Below, one piece after another: positions 7,983 to 24,316 of a DNA stretch of 64,000 nt; position 1 is the stretch's first letter, and each line of letters opens with the position of its first letter. The notes beneath the pieces were generated by a model, which was given only the letters and a program-made list of their open reading frames with translations, did not search any database and was not told the DNA's origin. Location: contig JAHJVW010000052.1 of NCBI GenBank assembly GCA_018828585.1, positions 1-64,000 on the forward strand, given 5' to 3'. Source of the stretch: Bacteroidota bacterium (GTDB lineage Bacteria > Bacteroidota > Bacteroidia > Sphingobacteriales > Sphingobacteriaceae). The position numbers were made by a program, and so were the translations under genes.

Positions 7983-8855
7983 TTAAATAATCAAATTAAG
8001 AGACAGATGTTTTATCCCAACGGAAATTACCTCCCCCATTTGTTGCGGCTCTCCGTCTAAATGTACTGGTCCGGCTTTTGATCTTTTGATTAAAATTTCT
8101 TTTCCCTTTACTATTCTTACGAATTTTGAGCCATCTGCGGATTTTGAAAACATACGATAACCTAAGGAGGGGAAAATATACATTGGAAAAGGTTTAATTA
8201 GACATACGTCTAGTAAACCATCTTGAACGGAAGCAGTGGGGGATACATGTGCATTATTTCCATATTGAGAAGAGTTAGCAATACTTAGCATAAAGCATTC
8301 TTGTTCAAATAATTGTCCGTCTACATCGATTTGGTAATCATCCGGCTTATATTTTGATATCTCGTTTAGTGTGGTCTTGATATATCCACCAAATCCTCTA
8401 TTTTTATCTTTTGCGAATAAAGAACTGATATGAGCATCAAAACCCAAACCCGCCATATTAAAAAATTTCTTGCCATTTAAAATCCCTGTATCTATTTGAA
8501 TAATTTTTAGGCCATTTAACCTTTCTATTGCGTCACTATTTTTAAGCGGTATTTTCAATGTTCTGGCTAATCCATTTCCAGACCCACATGGGATAATCCC
8601 CATCAATTTCCCCGATGATTCCATAACAGAAGCTACTTCATTAATAGTTCCATCACCACCTACAGCAACAACGATGTCAAACTGATTTTTCAAGCTATCT
8701 TCGGTCAATTTTCTTGCATGTCCAATGTATTCTGAAAATATAATTTCTGCCTTAAAAATTCCATGATCTAAGTATTTATCAATTAAATTAGGGAAAAAAG
8801 CCTTGTTTAAACCTCCAGAAATTGGATTTACAATAAAAAGTATCTTCTTCTTCAA
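7983..8855 (-). CDS. diacylglycerol/lipid kinase family protein (YegS-like)
   Basis: FIVNPISGG, VAVGGDGTINEV, GIIPCGSGNGLARTL motifs. Confidence 0.93.
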   Translation of the reverse strand: MKKKILFIVNPISGGLNKAFFPNLIDKYLDHGIFKAEIIFSEYIGHARKLTEDSLKNQFDIVVAVGGDGTINEVASVMESSGKLMGIIPCGSGNGLARTLKIPLKNSDAIERLNGLKIIQIDTGILNGKKFFNMAGLGFDAHISSLFAKDKNRGFGGYIKTTLNEISKYKPDDYQIDVDGQLFEQECFMLSIANSSQYGNNAHVSPTASVQDGLLDVCLIKPFPMYIFPSLGYRMFSKSADGSKFVRIVKGKEILIKRSKAGPVHLDGEPQQMGEVISVGIKHLSLNLII

Positions 8856-17166: not shown

Positions 17167-17628
17167 ATGAAGAATTCTTTTTTTTATTTTGGATATGGGA
17201 GTAGCCTAAATTTAGCGTTAATAGAATTTAGGATTAATGAACCTGTAATTTCTTTCGAAAAAGGGAAATTGAAAAATTATGCTTTAAGATTTAATAGACA
17301 AAACCCTGATGGAACTGCAAGAGCTAACTTAATTGCTGCAAAAGGAGAATATACGCTTGGGATCATCTATGAATTACCAAAAACCAAATTTGAGTTATTA
17401 AGCCAAACGGAACCCTTTTATAACTTAATTGAAACTGATATTGAAACTGATAATGGTGTAAAAAAAGCTTTTACATTCATGTGTCCTAAATTGGCAGAAA
17501 GTCTTTTTCCCCAAGAAAGTTATTTAAAAGTTATTTTAGAAGGTGCCGAATTGCATCATTTTCCAATAGAATACATTGAGCTGATTAAAAATTTAGCTCA
17601 AGCAAAAAAGCAAAGCCACGAGAAATAA
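17167..17628 (+). CDS. gamma-glutamylcyclotransferase-like protein
   Basis: FFYFGYGSSLN; internal ATG at 17167 preferred over listed start 17092, which overlaps the upstream gene. Confidence 0.8.
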   Translation: MKNSFFYFGYGSSLNLALIEFRINEPVISFEKGKLKNYALRFNRQNPDGTARANLIAAKGEYTLGIIYELPKTKFELLSQTEPFYNLIETDIETDNGVKKAFTFMCPKLAESLFPQESYLKVILEGAELHHFPIEYIELIKNLAQAKKQSHEK

Positions 17629-18467
17629 ATTAACATTGCCGAGCTGCTAATCAAAGTCATTCGCATCATATTTTTAAAATTCGCTGCTGTTTGATCTTTC
17701 CAAACTGCTGTAAGCCAAAAAACAAAAAAAACTATTACTGGTAATCCACAAGCAATAAAAATCCAGAAATTTTTATGATTATGATTATTTTTCCAGTAAA
17801 TAAACATTAAAACTGTTCCGAATAAAAACAATAATCCCGAGAATATAAAAGATCCCTTATAACCTAGTTTCATACTTAGGGTCTTATCTCCTCTTCTGCC
17901 ATCTTCTTCATGCTGATATATTTGCGTAAGTGGATAGGTTGCCCCAATTAAACAGGAACAAATTAATCCTGCCAGAAAGACATCGCCTGAAAAGCCAAAA
18001 TTAAAATTTGAAATAGCAAAGAAGCTCATGTAATAAATAAATGCTCCTTGGAATATAAAAACTACTAAAAAACTGATAATTGCATACTTTTTTAGTCTTA
18101 CAGAGGGATGACTGTAAGCTTTGGATAAAAAATTATAAAAAATTACTCCTACACAAAACTGCCAATTAACAAATAGTGCCAATAAAACCCCAAACCATTC
18201 TAAAGAAACCGAGGTGAGGTATAAAGCGTAATTAACTTTGGGTGGATTTTTGATAAGAGCTATACTACCTTCGTCTTTATCAAAATAACTATTGTAGCCA
18301 TTACTTGCGGGATAGGTAAAAAGATGTAAAACAATAAAAACCACAATTGCATTCGCTATGTTAAGCTGGGGAACAGTTGCTACGGCAAATAGAAAAACGG
18401 GCAGCAAAAAAAGAGAAAATGGCAAACGCAAATGGAGAAAAACAGATTTAACATTGGGGTTTGCCAT
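17598..18467 (-). CDS. UbiA-family prenyltransferase
   Basis: Multi-TM; Asp-rich motifs NGYNSYFDKDEGS and YQHEEDGRRGDKTLSMKLG. Confidence 0.85.
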   Translation of the reverse strand: MANPNVKSVFLHLRLPFSLFLLPVFLFAVATVPQLNIANAIVVFIVLHLFTYPASNGYNSYFDKDEGSIALIKNPPKVNYALYLTSVSLEWFGVLLALFVNWQFCVGVIFYNFLSKAYSHPSVRLKKYAIISFLVVFIFQGAFIYYMSFFAISNFNFGFSGDVFLAGLICSCLIGATYPLTQIYQHEEDGRRGDKTLSMKLGYKGSFIFSGLLFLFGTVLMFIYWKNNHNHKNFWIFIACGLPVIVFFVFWLTAVWKDQTAANFKNMMRMTLISSSAMLIYFSWLCFFA

Positions 18468-18512
18468 AAACGGTTAAAATATTAAACACTAAATTTAAAA
18501 AAACAAAAGCAG

Positions 18513-19619
18513 ATGAGTAGCATTATTTCGGCAATTGGTACCAGCAATCCTGAGAATCGTTTTTCTCAAGAGCAAATCTTTCATTTTATGAAGGATGCAC
18601 ACCAGCTGGATGCTCCAAGCGCTCGTCGATTAGAAAAACTATACCAAGTTTCGGGAATTGATTTTCGTCATTCGGTGTTAAACGATTTTGGAAAGATTAG
18701 AGGAGAATATGATTTTTTTGGAAACGGTTTAGGCTTAGAGCCTTTTCCGTCTACCTCACTTCGTGGAGATATTTTCCAATTTAAAGCTTTAGATTTAAGT
18801 ACTCATGCGATTGAGAATTGTCTTAATCAAATTAAAGGCTTTGATAAAACCAACATATCGCATTTAATTACAGTGAGTTGTACTGGGATGTATGCACCTG
18901 GCTTAGATATAGAAATTGTAGAAAAACTAGGTTTAAACCCAAATACCGAGCGGACTTGTATCAATTTTATGGGCTGCTATGGAGCGTTTAACGCATTAAA
19001 GGTTGCAGACTATATTTGTAGGGCAGAGCCAAATTCGAACGTATTAATTGTTGACGTTGAATTATGTACTTTGCATTTTCAGCGGGAAAACACTCTAGAT
19101 AATTGGTTGTCAAACTCTCTATTTGCTGATGGGGCTTCTGCAGTTTTGGTGCAAAATGAAGAATTCGCCACGGAAAAACTATTTAAAATAGATTCCTTTT
19201 ATACCGAAGTGGTTACCGAAGCTAAAAACGAAATGGCATGGAAAATTGGTAATCATGGTTTCGAAATGCAGTTGACTAATAAGGTATCTAAGCAAATCAA
19301 ATCAGGCATAAAAAATATATCGGAGAAATTGTTGAAAAAGGCAAATCTGGCTTTAGACGAAATCGGTTCTTTTGCTATACATCCAGGGGGAAGAAAAATA
19401 TTAGAGGTTTGTGATGAAGTTTTTCAATTAACAAATGCTCAAAATGAACATGCTTATACCGTTCTAAAAAACTTTGGTAACATGTCTTCAACGACTATTC
19501 TGTTTGTTTTAGACGAATTAAGCAAAAAATTAAAACTTAAAAACAACAACGAAAAAGTCATGAGTTTTGCCTTTGGTCCGGGATTAACTTTCGAAAGCAT
19601 GGTGTTAACTTATGCCTGA
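18513..19619 (+). CDS. type III polyketide synthase (chalcone/stilbene synthase family)
   Basis: Thiolase-fold ORF with Cys (NFMGCYGAFNALK), His (AIHPGGRKILE), Asn (KNFGNMSSTTILFVL) catalytic positions conserved. Confidence 0.92.
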   Translation: MSSIISAIGTSNPENRFSQEQIFHFMKDAHQLDAPSARRLEKLYQVSGIDFRHSVLNDFGKIRGEYDFFGNGLGLEPFPSTSLRGDIFQFKALDLSTHAIENCLNQIKGFDKTNISHLITVSCTGMYAPGLDIEIVEKLGLNPNTERTCINFMGCYGAFNALKVADYICRAEPNSNVLIVDVELCTLHFQRENTLDNWLSNSLFADGASAVLVQNEEFATEKLFKIDSFYTEVVTEAKNEMAWKIGNHGFEMQLTNKVSKQIKSGIKNISEKLLKKANLALDEIGSFAIHPGGRKILEVCDEVFQLTNAQNEHAYTVLKNFGNMSSTTILFVLDELSKKLKLKNNNEKVMSFAFGPGLTFESMVLTYA

Positions 19620-20307
19620 TTTTAGCAAACGCAGCAGCGAAGATGAAATCATGGATGACTTTGGGCTTTCTCACGAAGAATTAAATCCAGTTTTAAAAGA
19701 ACTCGATGTCATCAACAAATTACTCGGGGGTTTTTCTGTTTTTTTTGATGCCTTTAATAAAGTAAAAGTCAAATCCAAAGATTCCATTTCGGATTGGGGA
19801 TGCGGTAGTGGTGATACCTTTCAAGTACTTCAAAAGCAATTCGATAAGCAGAAAATCTATCCAACATATGTTGGAGTAGATGCTACGCCAGCAACCATAG
19901 AATATGCAAGTAAACAATTTGAAGGAAATTCAAAGGTGAGTTTTATTTTAAAAGACGTTTTAAAAGATGAGTTTAATGAAAATGAGTTTGATTTTGTGAT
20001 TAGCAGTTTATTTACACATCATTTTGAGGATGAGAAATGGTCGATATTGATAAAGAAAATGATGCATTCGTCTAAAAAAGCAGTTATCATTAATGACCTT
20101 CATCGTCATCCTTTGGCTTATTATTCTATTGGAATCTTAACACAGCTTTTCTCTAAATCACCCATGGTGAAACATGATAGCAAGGTTTCTGTAATGCGAA
20201 GCTTTAAAAAAAAGGAACTTGAAACGTTACTCGAAAAAGCAGGAGCAAAAAATTATACCATTAAATGGATGTGGGCTTTTAGGTGGCAAGTGATTATTTA
20301 TAAATGA
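19612..20307 (+). CDS. SAM-dependent methyltransferase
   Basis: SDWGCGSGDTFQVL, VGVDATPATIEYA, FVISSLFTHHFED; overlaps the PKS gene by 8 nt. Confidence 0.88.
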   Translation: MPDFSKRSSEDEIMDDFGLSHEELNPVLKELDVINKLLGGFSVFFDAFNKVKVKSKDSISDWGCGSGDTFQVLQKQFDKQKIYPTYVGVDATPATIEYASKQFEGNSKVSFILKDVLKDEFNENEFDFVISSLFTHHFEDEKWSILIKKMMHSSKKAVIINDLHRHPLAYYSIGILTQLFSKSPMVKHDSKVSVMRSFKKKELETLLEKAGAKNYTIKWMWAFRWQVIIYK

Positions 20308-21431
20308 ATGCAAAACCAAATATTGTAATTATTGGAGGAGGCTTGGCTGGTTTAATCAATGCAATTGTTTTGGCTAAAGCAGGTTTTGAAGTCAAAGTTA
20401 TCGAACGCAAAAGCTATCCATTTCATAAAGTTTGTGGCGAATACATCAGTAACGAAGTTTTACCATTTCTTAAAACTTTAGGATTAAATCCCGAGGATTG
20501 GGACGCTTCAAAAATATCGAATTTAAAAATAAGTGCCCCAAATGGTAAGTCATTATCTGCAAAATTAGATTTAGGTGCATTCGGCATTAGCCGTTACCAA
20601 TTAGATTTTGAATGTTACCAATTGGCAAAATCTTTAGGCGTTAATTTTTTGCTCAACACTAAAGTTTTAGACGTTTCATTTTTGGATGAAAAATTTGAAA
20701 TTGAAACCCCGACTCAAAAAATAAAAGCCGATTTAATCATTGGCGCTTTTGGAAAAAGATCTAATCTAGATCAAAAACTTAATCGTAAATTTTTCTATCA
20801 ACGCAGTCCCTATTTAGGCGTCAAATATCATATCCAAACTGATTTTCCAAAAAATTTAATTCAGCTAGACAATTTCGAAGGTGGTTATTGTGGGATCAGT
20901 AAAATTGAAAAGGATTTCTATTGTTTGTGCTATTTGGCCGAAAACAAACACCTAAAAAATTATGGTTCTATCCCAGTAATGGAAGAAAACATTCTTTATC
21001 AGAATCCGCTTCTTAAAAATATTTTTAAACAATCTCATTTTTTGTGGAAACAACCCGAAACGATTAATGAGATTTCTTTTGAACAAAAGTCATTAATAGA
21101 AAATCACATTTTAATGTGTGGAGATACCGCTGGAATGATTGCACCACTATGTGGAAACGGAATGGCCATAGCCATACATTCGGCTAAAATTTTAGCCGAA
21201 GAGATTATTGAGCAATGCTCAGAGGGAATTAATCCTAAAAAAAGAGCAACGCTCGAAAATCGATATCAACAAAAATGGCATCGGGAATTTGCTTTGCGTC
21301 TAAAAATCGGACGAGGGATTCAAAATATTTTCGGTAATAAAATTTTGACTTCACTCGCTGTTTCTTCCTTGCGGAAATTTCCATCTTTGACTCAAAAAAT
21401 CATTCGAAAAACTCACGGTAAACCATTTTAA
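20304..21431 (+). CDS. FAD-dependent oxidoreductase (geranylgeranyl reductase / PHBH-like superfamily)
   Basis: IVIIGGGLAGLINAIVLAKAG, KVCGEYIS, LMCGDTAGMIAPLCGNGMAIAIHSA; 4-nt overlap with methyltransferase. Confidence 0.88.
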   Translation: MNAKPNIVIIGGGLAGLINAIVLAKAGFEVKVIERKSYPFHKVCGEYISNEVLPFLKTLGLNPEDWDASKISNLKISAPNGKSLSAKLDLGAFGISRYQLDFECYQLAKSLGVNFLLNTKVLDVSFLDEKFEIETPTQKIKADLIIGAFGKRSNLDQKLNRKFFYQRSPYLGVKYHIQTDFPKNLIQLDNFEGGYCGISKIEKDFYCLCYLAENKHLKNYGSIPVMEENILYQNPLLKNIFKQSHFLWKQPETINEISFEQKSLIENHILMCGDTAGMIAPLCGNGMAIAIHSAKILAEEIIEQCSEGINPKKRATLENRYQQKWHREFALRLKIGRGIQNIFGNKILTSLAVSSLRKFPSLTQKIIRKTHGKPF

Positions 21432-21451: not shown

Positions 21452-22528
21452 ATGAAATTACGGACCTTAGTTTTCTTAAATGCATTTGCTGTTGGGATCT
21501 CCATTGGTTGCGTAAACTTATATTTTCAACACAATTGGTACTGGTTTTTAATTTCTCTCAGTGTTGCCACTGTTGTAAGTTATTTCGTTTTCTATTATTT
21601 GATAGAAAAATATGTCTACTCTAAAATTAAAATCATCTATAAAATGATACACAGTTTAAAACTAGGCAGAGATTTAAAAGATGCTTTAGGTGAATACGTA
21701 AGTCCTGATCCAATTAATGATGTAGAACAAGAAGTAAAAGAGTGGGCAAGAGACAAAAAATCAGAGATTGACGATTTAAAGAAACAAGAGAAATTCCGTC
21801 GTGAATTTTTATCAAATATTTCACACGAATTTAAAACTCCTCTTTTTGCGATTGAAGGTTATGTGGAAGCTTTACAAGACGGGGGATTAGAAGACCCAGA
21901 AACAGCAAAAAATTTCTTAAATAAAGTTTCTAAAAATGTAGATCGCTTATCTTTTTTAATAAAAGATTTAAATGAAATATCTAAACTAGAAAGCGGTGAA
22001 ATTCCCATCAATTATCAAAAGTTTGAGCTGACCTCCTTAGTAAAGGAAGTGATGGAGTCCTTAGAGTTGAAGGCAAAAAAATATAAAATCAACTTGGCAT
22101 TTAAAGATAAATATGATGTGCCAACTTGGGTTGAAGCTGATAGAGAAAAGATAAGACAGGTTTTAGTGAACTTGATAGACAATTCTTTCAAATACGGAAA
22201 AGAAAATGGGACCACTTCAATCACCATATTTCAGCTCCATGATCAATATTTAATAGAAATAACAGATGATGGAATAGGTATTGAAGAACAATGTTTACCA
22301 AGATTATTTGAGCGCTTTTACCGTACTGACACCAGCCGTTCTAGACAAATTGGAGGCTCAGGACTGGGTTTAGCTATTGTGAAACATATTGTTGAAGCTC
22401 ATGATCAAACCATTAATGTAAGAAGTACCTCTGGTATAGGATCTACTTTTGGGTTTACATTAAAACGATGTAAAGATGCCCGCATAAATATTCCTTTAAT
22501 TAATACCAACCCAATACTTAAAACTTAA
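21452..22528 (+). CDS. sensor histidine kinase (PhoR-like)
   Basis: FLSNISHEFKTPLFAIEGYVEAL, VLVNLIDNSFKYG, GGSGLGLAIVKHIVEAH. Confidence 0.92.
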   Translation: MKLRTLVFLNAFAVGISIGCVNLYFQHNWYWFLISLSVATVVSYFVFYYLIEKYVYSKIKIIYKMIHSLKLGRDLKDALGEYVSPDPINDVEQEVKEWARDKKSEIDDLKKQEKFRREFLSNISHEFKTPLFAIEGYVEALQDGGLEDPETAKNFLNKVSKNVDRLSFLIKDLNEISKLESGEIPINYQKFELTSLVKEVMESLELKAKKYKINLAFKDKYDVPTWVEADREKIRQVLVNLIDNSFKYGKENGTTSITIFQLHDQYLIEITDDGIGIEEQCLPRLFERFYRTDTSRSRQIGGSGLGLAIVKHIVEAHDQTINVRSTSGIGSTFGFTLKRCKDARINIPLINTNPILKT

Positions 22529-22541
22529 CACTATATTAACA
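22525..22541 (+). promoter_or_regulatory. Pho-box-like direct repeat TTAACA-ctata-TTAACA
   Basis: Two exact TTAACA hexamers with 11-bp period, followed by a -7-like TAGTTTTG at 22551-22558. Confidence 0.6.
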
Positions 22542-22550
22542 TAGGGATAG

Positions 22551-22558
22551 TAGTTTTG
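22551..22558 (+). promoter_or_regulatory. Bacteroidota -7 element (TAGTTTTG) upstream of DUF47-Pit
   Basis: TAnnTTTG match 23 nt before the ATG. Confidence 0.55.
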
Positions 22559-22581
22559 CAGTCTAAAACTATTGATTAGTA

Positions 22582-23223
22582 ATGAACAATATATTCTCTT
22601 ATTTCATCCCAAAAGACAGAAAATTTTTTCCTCTTTTTGAAAGTGCCAGTTCCAATTTAGTAGAAATGTCTGTAATGCTTAAGAAGCTTGTTAACACAGA
22701 TGATTTAGCAGCCAGAGAGCCTTTACATAAGGAAATAGAACAGTTAGAGCATAAAGGTGACGAGATCACTCATCAAATCTATTTAGAATTAGGTAAAACT
22801 TTCATTACTCCGTTTGATAGAGAGGATATACATACCCTTGCTACTGCGTTGGATGATGTTGCTGACTACATGCATGGTAGTTCTAATCGTATTTTGCTTT
22901 ATAATGTATTCGACATGACAGAGCCTATCAAAAAATTAGCTGAGTTAGTAGCTCAGAGCTGTGTTGACGTGGATAAAGCAATTAAAGAACTGAAAAACCT
23001 TAAGAACATTCGAGTTATTACTGATTCTTGTGTGAGAATTAATAGCATCGAAAATCAGGCTGATTACGTATTTGACAAAGCTATTGGCGATTTATTCGAT
23101 TTTGAAGAAGACGCTAAAGTAATTATGAAGTATAAAGAAGTATTAAATGGCTTAGAAACAGCCACAGATATGTGCGAAGATGTTGCCAATGTTTTAGAAA
23201 CCATATTGGTAAAAAACGCATAA
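22582..23223 (+). CDS. DUF47 / PhoU-like phosphate transport regulator
   Basis: HKGDEITHQIYLELGKTFITPFDREDIHTLATALDDVADY. Confidence 0.93.
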   Translation: MNNIFSYFIPKDRKFFPLFESASSNLVEMSVMLKKLVNTDDLAAREPLHKEIEQLEHKGDEITHQIYLELGKTFITPFDREDIHTLATALDDVADYMHGSSNRILLYNVFDMTEPIKKLAELVAQSCVDVDKAIKELKNLKNIRVITDSCVRINSIENQADYVFDKAIGDLFDFEEDAKVIMKYKEVLNGLETATDMCEDVANVLETILVKNA

Positions 23224-23244
23224 ACCTAAAAAAATCTTGTTATA

Positions 23245-24255
23245 ATGGTTACTACACTCCTTATCATTGTTATCATCTTGGCAATTTGCTTTGATTTTAT
23301 CAATGGTTTTCACGATGCTGCCAACTCTATTGCTACCATTGTATCAACCAAAGTTTTAAGCCCTTTTCAGGCAGTACTTTGGGCAGCATTATTCAATTTT
23401 GCTGCTTACTTTTGGTTTACAGATCATGGTGTCGCTGGAACTGTACAAAAATTGGTTAATCCAAACTATGTCACACTAGAGGTTATTTTGTCTGCATTAT
23501 TAGCTGCAATATCTTGGAATTTATTGACTTGGTGGTACGGGATACCATCTAGTTCTTCCCATACCTTAATTGGTGGTTTTGCAGGAGCGGGTATGGCACA
23601 TGCAATTTTTATGGGAGATTCAGCATTAATCGCTGTTAATCTTCCCTCCATTTTAAAAGTCGTTGCTTTTATTGTATTAGCACCTATAATAGGAATGATT
23701 ATCGCCATTGTTATTAACTTGATTATTATTAATATCTCTAAAAATGCAAGACCTTCCGTTGCAGAAAAATGGTTTAAAAGGCTTCAATTAGTTTCATCAG
23801 CAGCATTAAGTTTTACTCATGGTGGTAACGATGCCCAAAAAGTAATGGGAATTATATTTGCTGCATTAATTGCAAACAACGTAGTTGCTCCAGGCTCTCC
23901 AATGCCAGAATGGATTCCAATAGCCTGTTTTACTGCCATTGCACTAGGTACGATGAGTGGCGGATGGAAAATTGTTAAAACGATGGGTACAAAAATCACT
24001 AAAGTAACTGCTTTAGAAGGGGTAAGTGCCGAAACCGCAGGTGCGATAACTTTAGGAATAACAGAGCATTTTGGTATTCCAGTTTCTACTACACATACTA
24101 TAACAGGTTCTATTATTGGAGTTGGATTAACAAAAAGAGTTTCTGCTGTGAGGTGGGGAGTTACTTATAGCCTAGTTTGGGCATGGATTTTAACCATTCC
24201 AGTTTCAGCTGTTTTGGCAGGTATTGTTTACTCGATTGTCCGCCTAATTTTGTAA
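23245..24255 (+). CDS. pit: inorganic phosphate transporter (Pit family)
   Basis: FDFINGFHDAANSIATIVSTKVL, GIPSSSSHTLIGG, SFTHGGNDAQKVMGII. Confidence 0.95.
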   Translation: MVTTLLIIVIILAICFDFINGFHDAANSIATIVSTKVLSPFQAVLWAALFNFAAYFWFTDHGVAGTVQKLVNPNYVTLEVILSALLAAISWNLLTWWYGIPSSSSHTLIGGFAGAGMAHAIFMGDSALIAVNLPSILKVVAFIVLAPIIGMIIAIVINLIIINISKNARPSVAEKWFKRLQLVSSAALSFTHGGNDAQKVMGIIFAALIANNVVAPGSPMPEWIPIACFTAIALGTMSGGWKIVKTMGTKITKVTALEGVSAETAGAITLGITEHFGIPVSTTHTITGSIIGVGLTKRVSAVRWGVTYSLVWAWILTIPVSAVLAGIVYSIVRLIL

Positions 24256-24270
24256 GCTGTTATCGCTTTA

Positions 24271-24316
24271 AAAAAAAGAAGGTCTTTCTGCAAAAGCAGA
24301 AAGACCTTCTTTTTTT
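24271..24316. terminator. bidirectional intrinsic terminator
   Basis: AAAAAAAGAAGGTCTTTCTGC-aaaa-GCAGAAAGACCTTCTTTTTTT, 21-bp perfect arms between convergent genes. Confidence 0.92.

Follow-up and report, generated by a model that had tools for sequence, protein, structure and literature searches.

In the 64,000-nucleotide (nt) stretch of Sphingobacteriaceae DNA analyzed here (the window; contig JAHJVW010000052.1), four neighboring genes at positions 17598 to 21431 encode a UbiA-superfamily membrane protein, a type III polyketide synthase (PKS), a methyltransferase (MT), and a flavin adenine dinucleotide (FAD)-dependent oxidoreductase. These genes form one biosynthetic unit, as an earlier reading of the sequence alone (the sequence-only reading) had proposed: they co-occur across genomes and stay linked through rearrangements of their order. 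The part that looks new is the near-obligate, phylum-wide pairing of the PKS with a distinct clade of UbiA proteins. The best explanation, in which we have moderate confidence, is a four-enzyme phenolic-lipid pathway, and its product would most likely be a methylated, possibly oxidized, and probably prenylated alkylresorcinol lipid. The features of the cluster are as follows.

17598..18467, minus strand: UbiA-superfamily membrane protein, 289 amino acids (Pfam, AlphaFold, motif alignment)
18468..18512, no strand: intergenic gap of 45 nt between the divergent UbiA and PKS genes (sequence)
18513..19619, plus strand: type III polyketide synthase, 368 amino acids, Cys155-His290-Asn323 (Pfam, alignment)
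19612..20307, plus strand: class I S-adenosylmethionine (SAM)-dependent methyltransferase, 231 amino acids (Pfam; 8-nt overlap with the PKS gene)
20304..21431, plus strand: FAD-dependent oxidoreductase, 375 amino acids, KVCGEYIS type (Pfam, fold; 4-nt overlap with the MT gene)

All four open reading frames (ORFs) are intact, and the gene coordinates, the 45-nt divergence, and the two overlaps given by the sequence-only reading are exact to the base. The PKS and MT genes overlap by ATGCCTGA (8 nt), which is the most frequent spacing in the 14 loci fetched from relatives (with first-ATG starts), and the MT and FAD genes overlap by ATGA (4 nt). The Pfam assignments lie well above their cutoffs, with 66.7 bits for UbiA (PF01040; cutoff, 34.2), 89.5 and 82.1 bits for Chal_sti_synt_N (PF00195) and Chal_sti_synt_C (PF02797) in the PKS (cutoff, 27), 52.2 bits for Methyltransf_25 in the MT (cutoff, 27), and 46.6 bits for FAD_binding_3 in the FAD protein (cutoff, 22).

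Co-occurrence of UbiA and PKS across Bacteroidota

The sequence-only reading had set the co-conservation of UbiA with the PKS beforehand as the point on which its proposal could fail, and the pairing was found throughout: every genome with this UbiA also carried the PKS, both in the window's family (53 of 53) and in a sample of the phylum (26 of 26). Among 151 family genomes, the PKS clade (called at E < 1e-75, plus one split gene) was present in 56 and the UbiA in 53; both were found in 53 genomes, the PKS alone in 3, the UbiA alone in none, and neither in 95 (Fisher P of ∼1e-37, a value that is not corrected for kinship). Genera of mixed presence (g1, g2, g15, and g20) served as informal contrasts for kinship. 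The phylum sample comprised 396 genomes, and its 26 genomes with a strong UbiA are those outside family f24. In f24, PKS-positive genomes encode a sister UbiA (mostly 120 to 163 bits) at a site separate from the PKS operon, and since nearly all listed f24 genomes are PKS positive, this family adds little to the co-occurrence test.

The pairing does not depend on physical linkage, as both genes are present though unlinked in G055, G020, G528, G311, G221, G303, G291, and G335. In G097, a genome of the window's own genus, the PKS, UbiA, and FAD genes are all missing while its congeners keep the set, so that the three were lost together as a unit. This UbiA is absent where the other Bacteroidota type III PKS clade is the only one present, as in G013, which has an FAD-MT-PKS operon of its own. 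The UbiA is never found without the PKS and the PKS is sometimes found without the UbiA; the UbiA therefore probably acts downstream of the PKS, on its product.

Linkage was followed in fetched PKS relatives of 98 to 49% identity from Sphingobacteriaceae, Cyclobacteriaceae, Hymenobacteraceae, and other Cytophagales. The stretches fetched around 79 PKS loci contained the UbiA gene in 64, the MT gene in 76, and the FAD gene in 67. With < and > marking gene direction, the arrangements included UbiA< PKS> MT> FAD>, UbiA< PKS> FAD> MT>, FAD> UbiA< PKS> MT>, and FAD> PKS> MT>, as well as UbiA> PKS> MT> with FAD next but truncated where the fetched piece stops. Thus, at least four rearranged orders, spread over several families, still hold the genes together, and linkage that outlasts rearrangement argues for a functional unit.

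It could still be that the other three genes make up a plain hierridin-type methylated alkylresorcinol pathway and that the UbiA is a hitchhiker with an unrelated role, e.g., as a second lipoquinone enzyme. PKS, MT, and FAD genes do occur on Deinococcus, Paludisphaera, Methylobacterium, and Psychrobacter plasmids with no UbiA in the region shown, and three family genomes have the PKS without the UbiA. However, even where the two are unlinked, this UbiA is seen only in genomes that have the PKS, and housekeeping roles in the window's genome can fall to its other UbiA-family genes, which leaves this explanation very improbable. The simpler notion that the UbiA is a chance neighbor was rejected on the whole-genome co-occurrence, unlinked cases included.

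Several loci depart from the common layout. One f24 locus (L171:509-8866) carries in a row a large histidine kinase, a MATE transporter, the PKS, the MT, and a different FAD_binding_3-type oxidoreductase. A second type III PKS clade in the window's family (L187:3220-6115) has its own FAD-MT-PKS operon and no UbiA; the FAD protein of this clade matches the window family at 473 bits, but the PKS is only ∼30% identical. In the Pedobacter cryoconitis record, the FAD gene is split into two pieces (L072:9789-11037), and an in-frame TAA interrupts the UbiA gene at G091:C1:3926-4771; both are possibly decaying copies or assembly errors.

Altered metal-binding motifs of the UbiA protein

The sequence-only reading had called the membrane protein a UbiA prenyltransferase. 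Its UbiA fold is firmly assigned, but both canonical aspartate motifs are invariantly altered. The AlphaFold model (predicted local distance difference test [pLDDT] score, 95.5) finds UbiA enzymes as its best PDB folds, with template modeling (TM) scores of 0.62 to 0.67 to 4tq4, 7bpu, and 6m31; the structural matches also include the membrane phosphoribosyltransferase 8j8j/8j8k. In place of the first motif, NDxxDxxxD, the protein reads N59-S60-Y-F-D63-K-D65-E-G67. Ser replaces the second-position Asp in all 84 aligned UbiA sequences, and the last position (67), Gly here, is G, D, E, or K among relatives. The second motif, DxxxD, reads Q185xxxD189, and the Gln is likewise invariant in the 84 sequences. 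The sister clade of f24 shares these departures (NSxxDKD and QxxxD). A plasmid search with the UbiA gave no match, and a PDB profile search with its alignment returned only chlorophyll synthase, weakly (E 0.08).

In AfUbiA, the Mg ligands are N68, D72, D198, and D202; R22 and K146 also bind the diphosphate, and Y139 is conserved in nearly the whole family (PMC4106721). The residues kept here are R14, N59, D63, Y118-S119, K126, and D189; Y118-S119, R14, R124, and K126 are invariant and correspond to the Tyr-Ser pair of transmembrane helix 4 and the basic residues of AfUbiA (Y139-S140, R22, and K146), a mapping made by motif and by the weak chlorophyll synthase alignment (E 0.08). The substituted Q185 is the counterpart of D198, where mutation has marked effects: GPP (geranyl diphosphate) binding is 45-fold weaker in AfUbiA D198A, and EcMenA mutants at the equivalent place are inactive or nearly so (PMC4106721). 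Two UbiA-family paralogues in the window's genome (L142 and L144) keep Asp at this place. The L144 paralogue (G000:C91:3973-4488 region) is very divergent (Pfam, 34 bits), with a kept DxxxD second motif and an odd first motif.

These replacements might mean that the protein is not an ordinary prenyltransferase and either moves a non-prenyl group from a diphosphate onto the PKS product or does no more than bind that product or move it within the membrane; the fold's hosting of an enzyme that uses another donor, the phosphoribosyltransferase named above, is consistent with this. We consider it unlikely, as N59, D63, D189, R14, K126, and Y118-S119 are retained, and in chlorophyll synthase, which is active as a prenyltransferase, the column of Q185 holds Ser and that of Q182 holds Asp (in the same weak alignment). 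A stricter view, in which the altered motifs prove a loss of prenyltransferase activity, was softened for the same reasons: the main Mg and diphosphate residues are kept, and chlorophyll synthase departs at the same column. From the fold together with the retained Asn, Asp, Arg, Lys, and Tyr residues, the protein is probably still a prenyltransferase, belonging to a distinct Bacteroidota clade with an altered metal site.

Type III PKS, tailoring enzymes, and related clusters

The catalytic triad noted in the sequence-only reading consists of C155 (in FMGCYG), H290 (in HPGG), and N323 (in GNMSS), and it is invariant across 109 aligned PKS sequences. This chalcone synthase-type PKS is single copy in the window's genome; the nearest record, 98% identical, is from a Pseudopedobacter metagenome-assembled genome (MAG), and the host is Pedobacter-like.

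The PKS-MT-FAD core is a widespread, known module. The cyanobacterial hidABC hierridin clusters and a Planctomycetota operon combine an MT, an FAD oxidoreductase, and a type III PKS as in the window (PMC8086630, PMC10896814), and the MT-FAD-PKS operon of Paludisphaera encodes homologues of the window proteins (BLASTP identities of 35% for the PKS [9e-81], 24% for the MT [1e-21], and 22% for the FAD protein [8e-20]), the FAD proteins of both carrying the KVCG signature. The window's order, PKS-MT-FAD, differs from the commoner MT-FAD-PKS of this type but equals the second cyanobacterial pattern, hidC-hidA-hidB (PMC8086630). UbiA is not part of these operons, bar one cyanobacterial cluster listed with a prenyltransferase (PMC8086630), whereas it is near-obligatory in the window type. 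A Deinococcus radiodurans plasmid carries the PKS, MT, and FAD genes in the window's order, likewise overlapping, but its FAD protein is of a different subfamily, and the Psychrobacter and Methylobacterium plasmids carry the three genes in other arrangements. The Psychrobacter PKS (L145:6001-8824, with MT and FAD genes) is 46% identical to the window's, and in a quick tree it branches within the Bacteroidota clade; it was likely acquired by horizontal transfer.

The combination of a type III PKS with a UbiA is also already known. In unrelated organisms, the plant route to cannabigerolic acid shares a PKS-then-UbiA scheme with the window: olivetol synthase, a type III PKS, provides an alkylresorcinol-type scaffold, on which a UbiA-type aromatic prenyltransferase then acts. 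The srsABC operon of Streptomyces griseus, likened by description only, is said to follow the same logic of PKS, MT, and flavin enzyme with no UbiA in the operon. The actinobacterial agq cluster of Actinoplanes missouriensis reportedly combines a type III PKS, an MT, and a UbiA-family protein. As far as its description through PMC10896814 goes, it makes alkyl-O-dihydrogeranyl-methoxyhydroquinones (Awakawa 2011, doi 10.1002/cbic.201000628), i.e., prenylated methoxy-hydroquinone lipids. The los cluster of Micromonospora likewise encodes a type III PKS, an MT, and a UbiA-family protein (gene table, PMC7587189), with a redox gene annotated as an acyl-CoA dehydrogenase where the window has an FAD monooxygenase-like protein. 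Both clusters come from a different phylum and are likened to the window by description, not sequence. The searched open literature held no described Bacteroidota cluster of this kind and no assigned product. What appears undescribed is the pairing with this UbiA clade, not the core or the general combination.

That the PKS product is most likely an alkylresorcinol is argued mainly from two reports: PKSs of the planctomycete MT-FAD-PKS operon type make pentadecyl- and heptadecylresorcinols (PMC10896814), and a C2-C7 aldol cyclization is proposed for HidC (PMC8086630). An alpha-pyrone or other non-resorcinol scaffold, modified by the other three enzymes, is the alternative, and the solved structures closest to the PKS by sequence do include PKS18, a long-chain pyrone synthase, and Steely1. 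Resorcinol-like phenols, however, are natural acceptors of UbiA-type aromatic prenyltransfer. The tailoring set, an MT with a KVCG-type FAD protein, also matches alkylresorcinol operons (PMC10896814, PMC8086630), and a non-resorcinol scaffold appears improbable.

A lipophilic product is hinted at by the gene neighborhood. YceI is a polyisoprenoid-binding family, and a YceI-family gene (PF04264) lies directly 5′ of the PKS gene in 27 relatives, mostly Mucilaginibacter; at L085 (PKS at 8001) and the 26 loci like it, it stands between the PKS and UbiA genes. A lipid/isoprenoid-binding gene also adjoins the PKS of "Saltatorellus" (PMC10896814).

The sequence-only reading compared the flavoenzyme with the srsABC logic, in which the phenol is oxidized to a quinone; here, a quinone is a conjecture. 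The protein is indeed an FAD oxidoreductase, with the fold of the UbiH, 3-hydroxybenzoate hydroxylase, and PltA halogenase superfamily, which spans aromatic hydroxylases, geranylgeranyl reductases, and halogenases. The GxGxxG (GGGLAG) and GD (GDTAG) motifs of class A are present and the DG site reads AFGKRS, and against TIGR02032, the geranylgeranyl reductase family, the protein reaches 105 bits (cutoff, 158.8). A flavin halogenase was rejected, since WxWxIP is absent. A hydroxylase is our leading guess; reduction of the alkyl or prenyl chain is less likely.

Taken as a pathway, the PKS would extend a fatty acyl starter with malonyl-CoA and cyclize the chain, most likely to an alkylresorcinol; the MT would place a methyl group on the ring or a hydroxyl (the Gimesia maris MT and FAD proteins add one methyl, probably a C-methyl [PMC10896814]); the FAD enzyme would oxidize, or less likely reduce, the product; and the UbiA-family enzyme would then attach a prenyl group in the membrane. 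We infer the starter, ring type, methyl position, flavoenzyme reaction, prenyl donor, and step order. Several observations weigh against this four-enzyme pathway: the PKS is only 35% identical to the planctomycete operon PKS, so that the ring type is extrapolated; the FAD protein departs from class A hydroxylases at the DG site and reaches the cutoff of no curated NCBIfam family; the counterpart of AfUbiA D198 is Gln in every orthologue; G090, G111, and G150 have the PKS without the UbiA; and the chemistry assigned to every member is a prediction.

Neighboring genes and significance

Scans of the 45-nt gap between the UbiA and PKS genes for sigma-70 and TAnnTTTG promoters found no match inside it. 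Downstream, 20 nt after the FAD gene and with no terminator between, follow genes for a PhoR/PnpS-like histidine kinase, a DUF47 protein, and a PiT phosphate transporter (21452 to 24315, plus strand), a run that closes with a strong terminator-like hairpin (24272 to 24315). The kinase, and where seen DUF47-PiT too, also occurs in genomes without the cluster, which weakens a connection to phosphate signaling; that phosphate is tied to the lipid pathway is a lead at most.

The four-gene lipid pathway is found in about one-third of the sampled family genomes and in several other Bacteroidota families. More broadly, the cluster may represent Bacteroidota-wide, meroterpenoid-like membrane lipids, in which alkylresorcinols are modified by a new UbiA subfamily (NSxxDxD/QxxxD) that, given the replaced aspartates in its active site, would work with a changed metal site or with another donor; we offer this tentatively, as a possibility that is on balance doubtful. 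The pairing with the PKS supplies a ready substrate with which to test a UbiA subfamily whose metal site is altered, and the cluster could be a source of bacterial enzymes for prenylated resorcinols. Should the product turn out to be a prenylated alkylresorcinol or quinone, bacteria that are common in soil and fresh water would contain a membrane component that has so far been overlooked.

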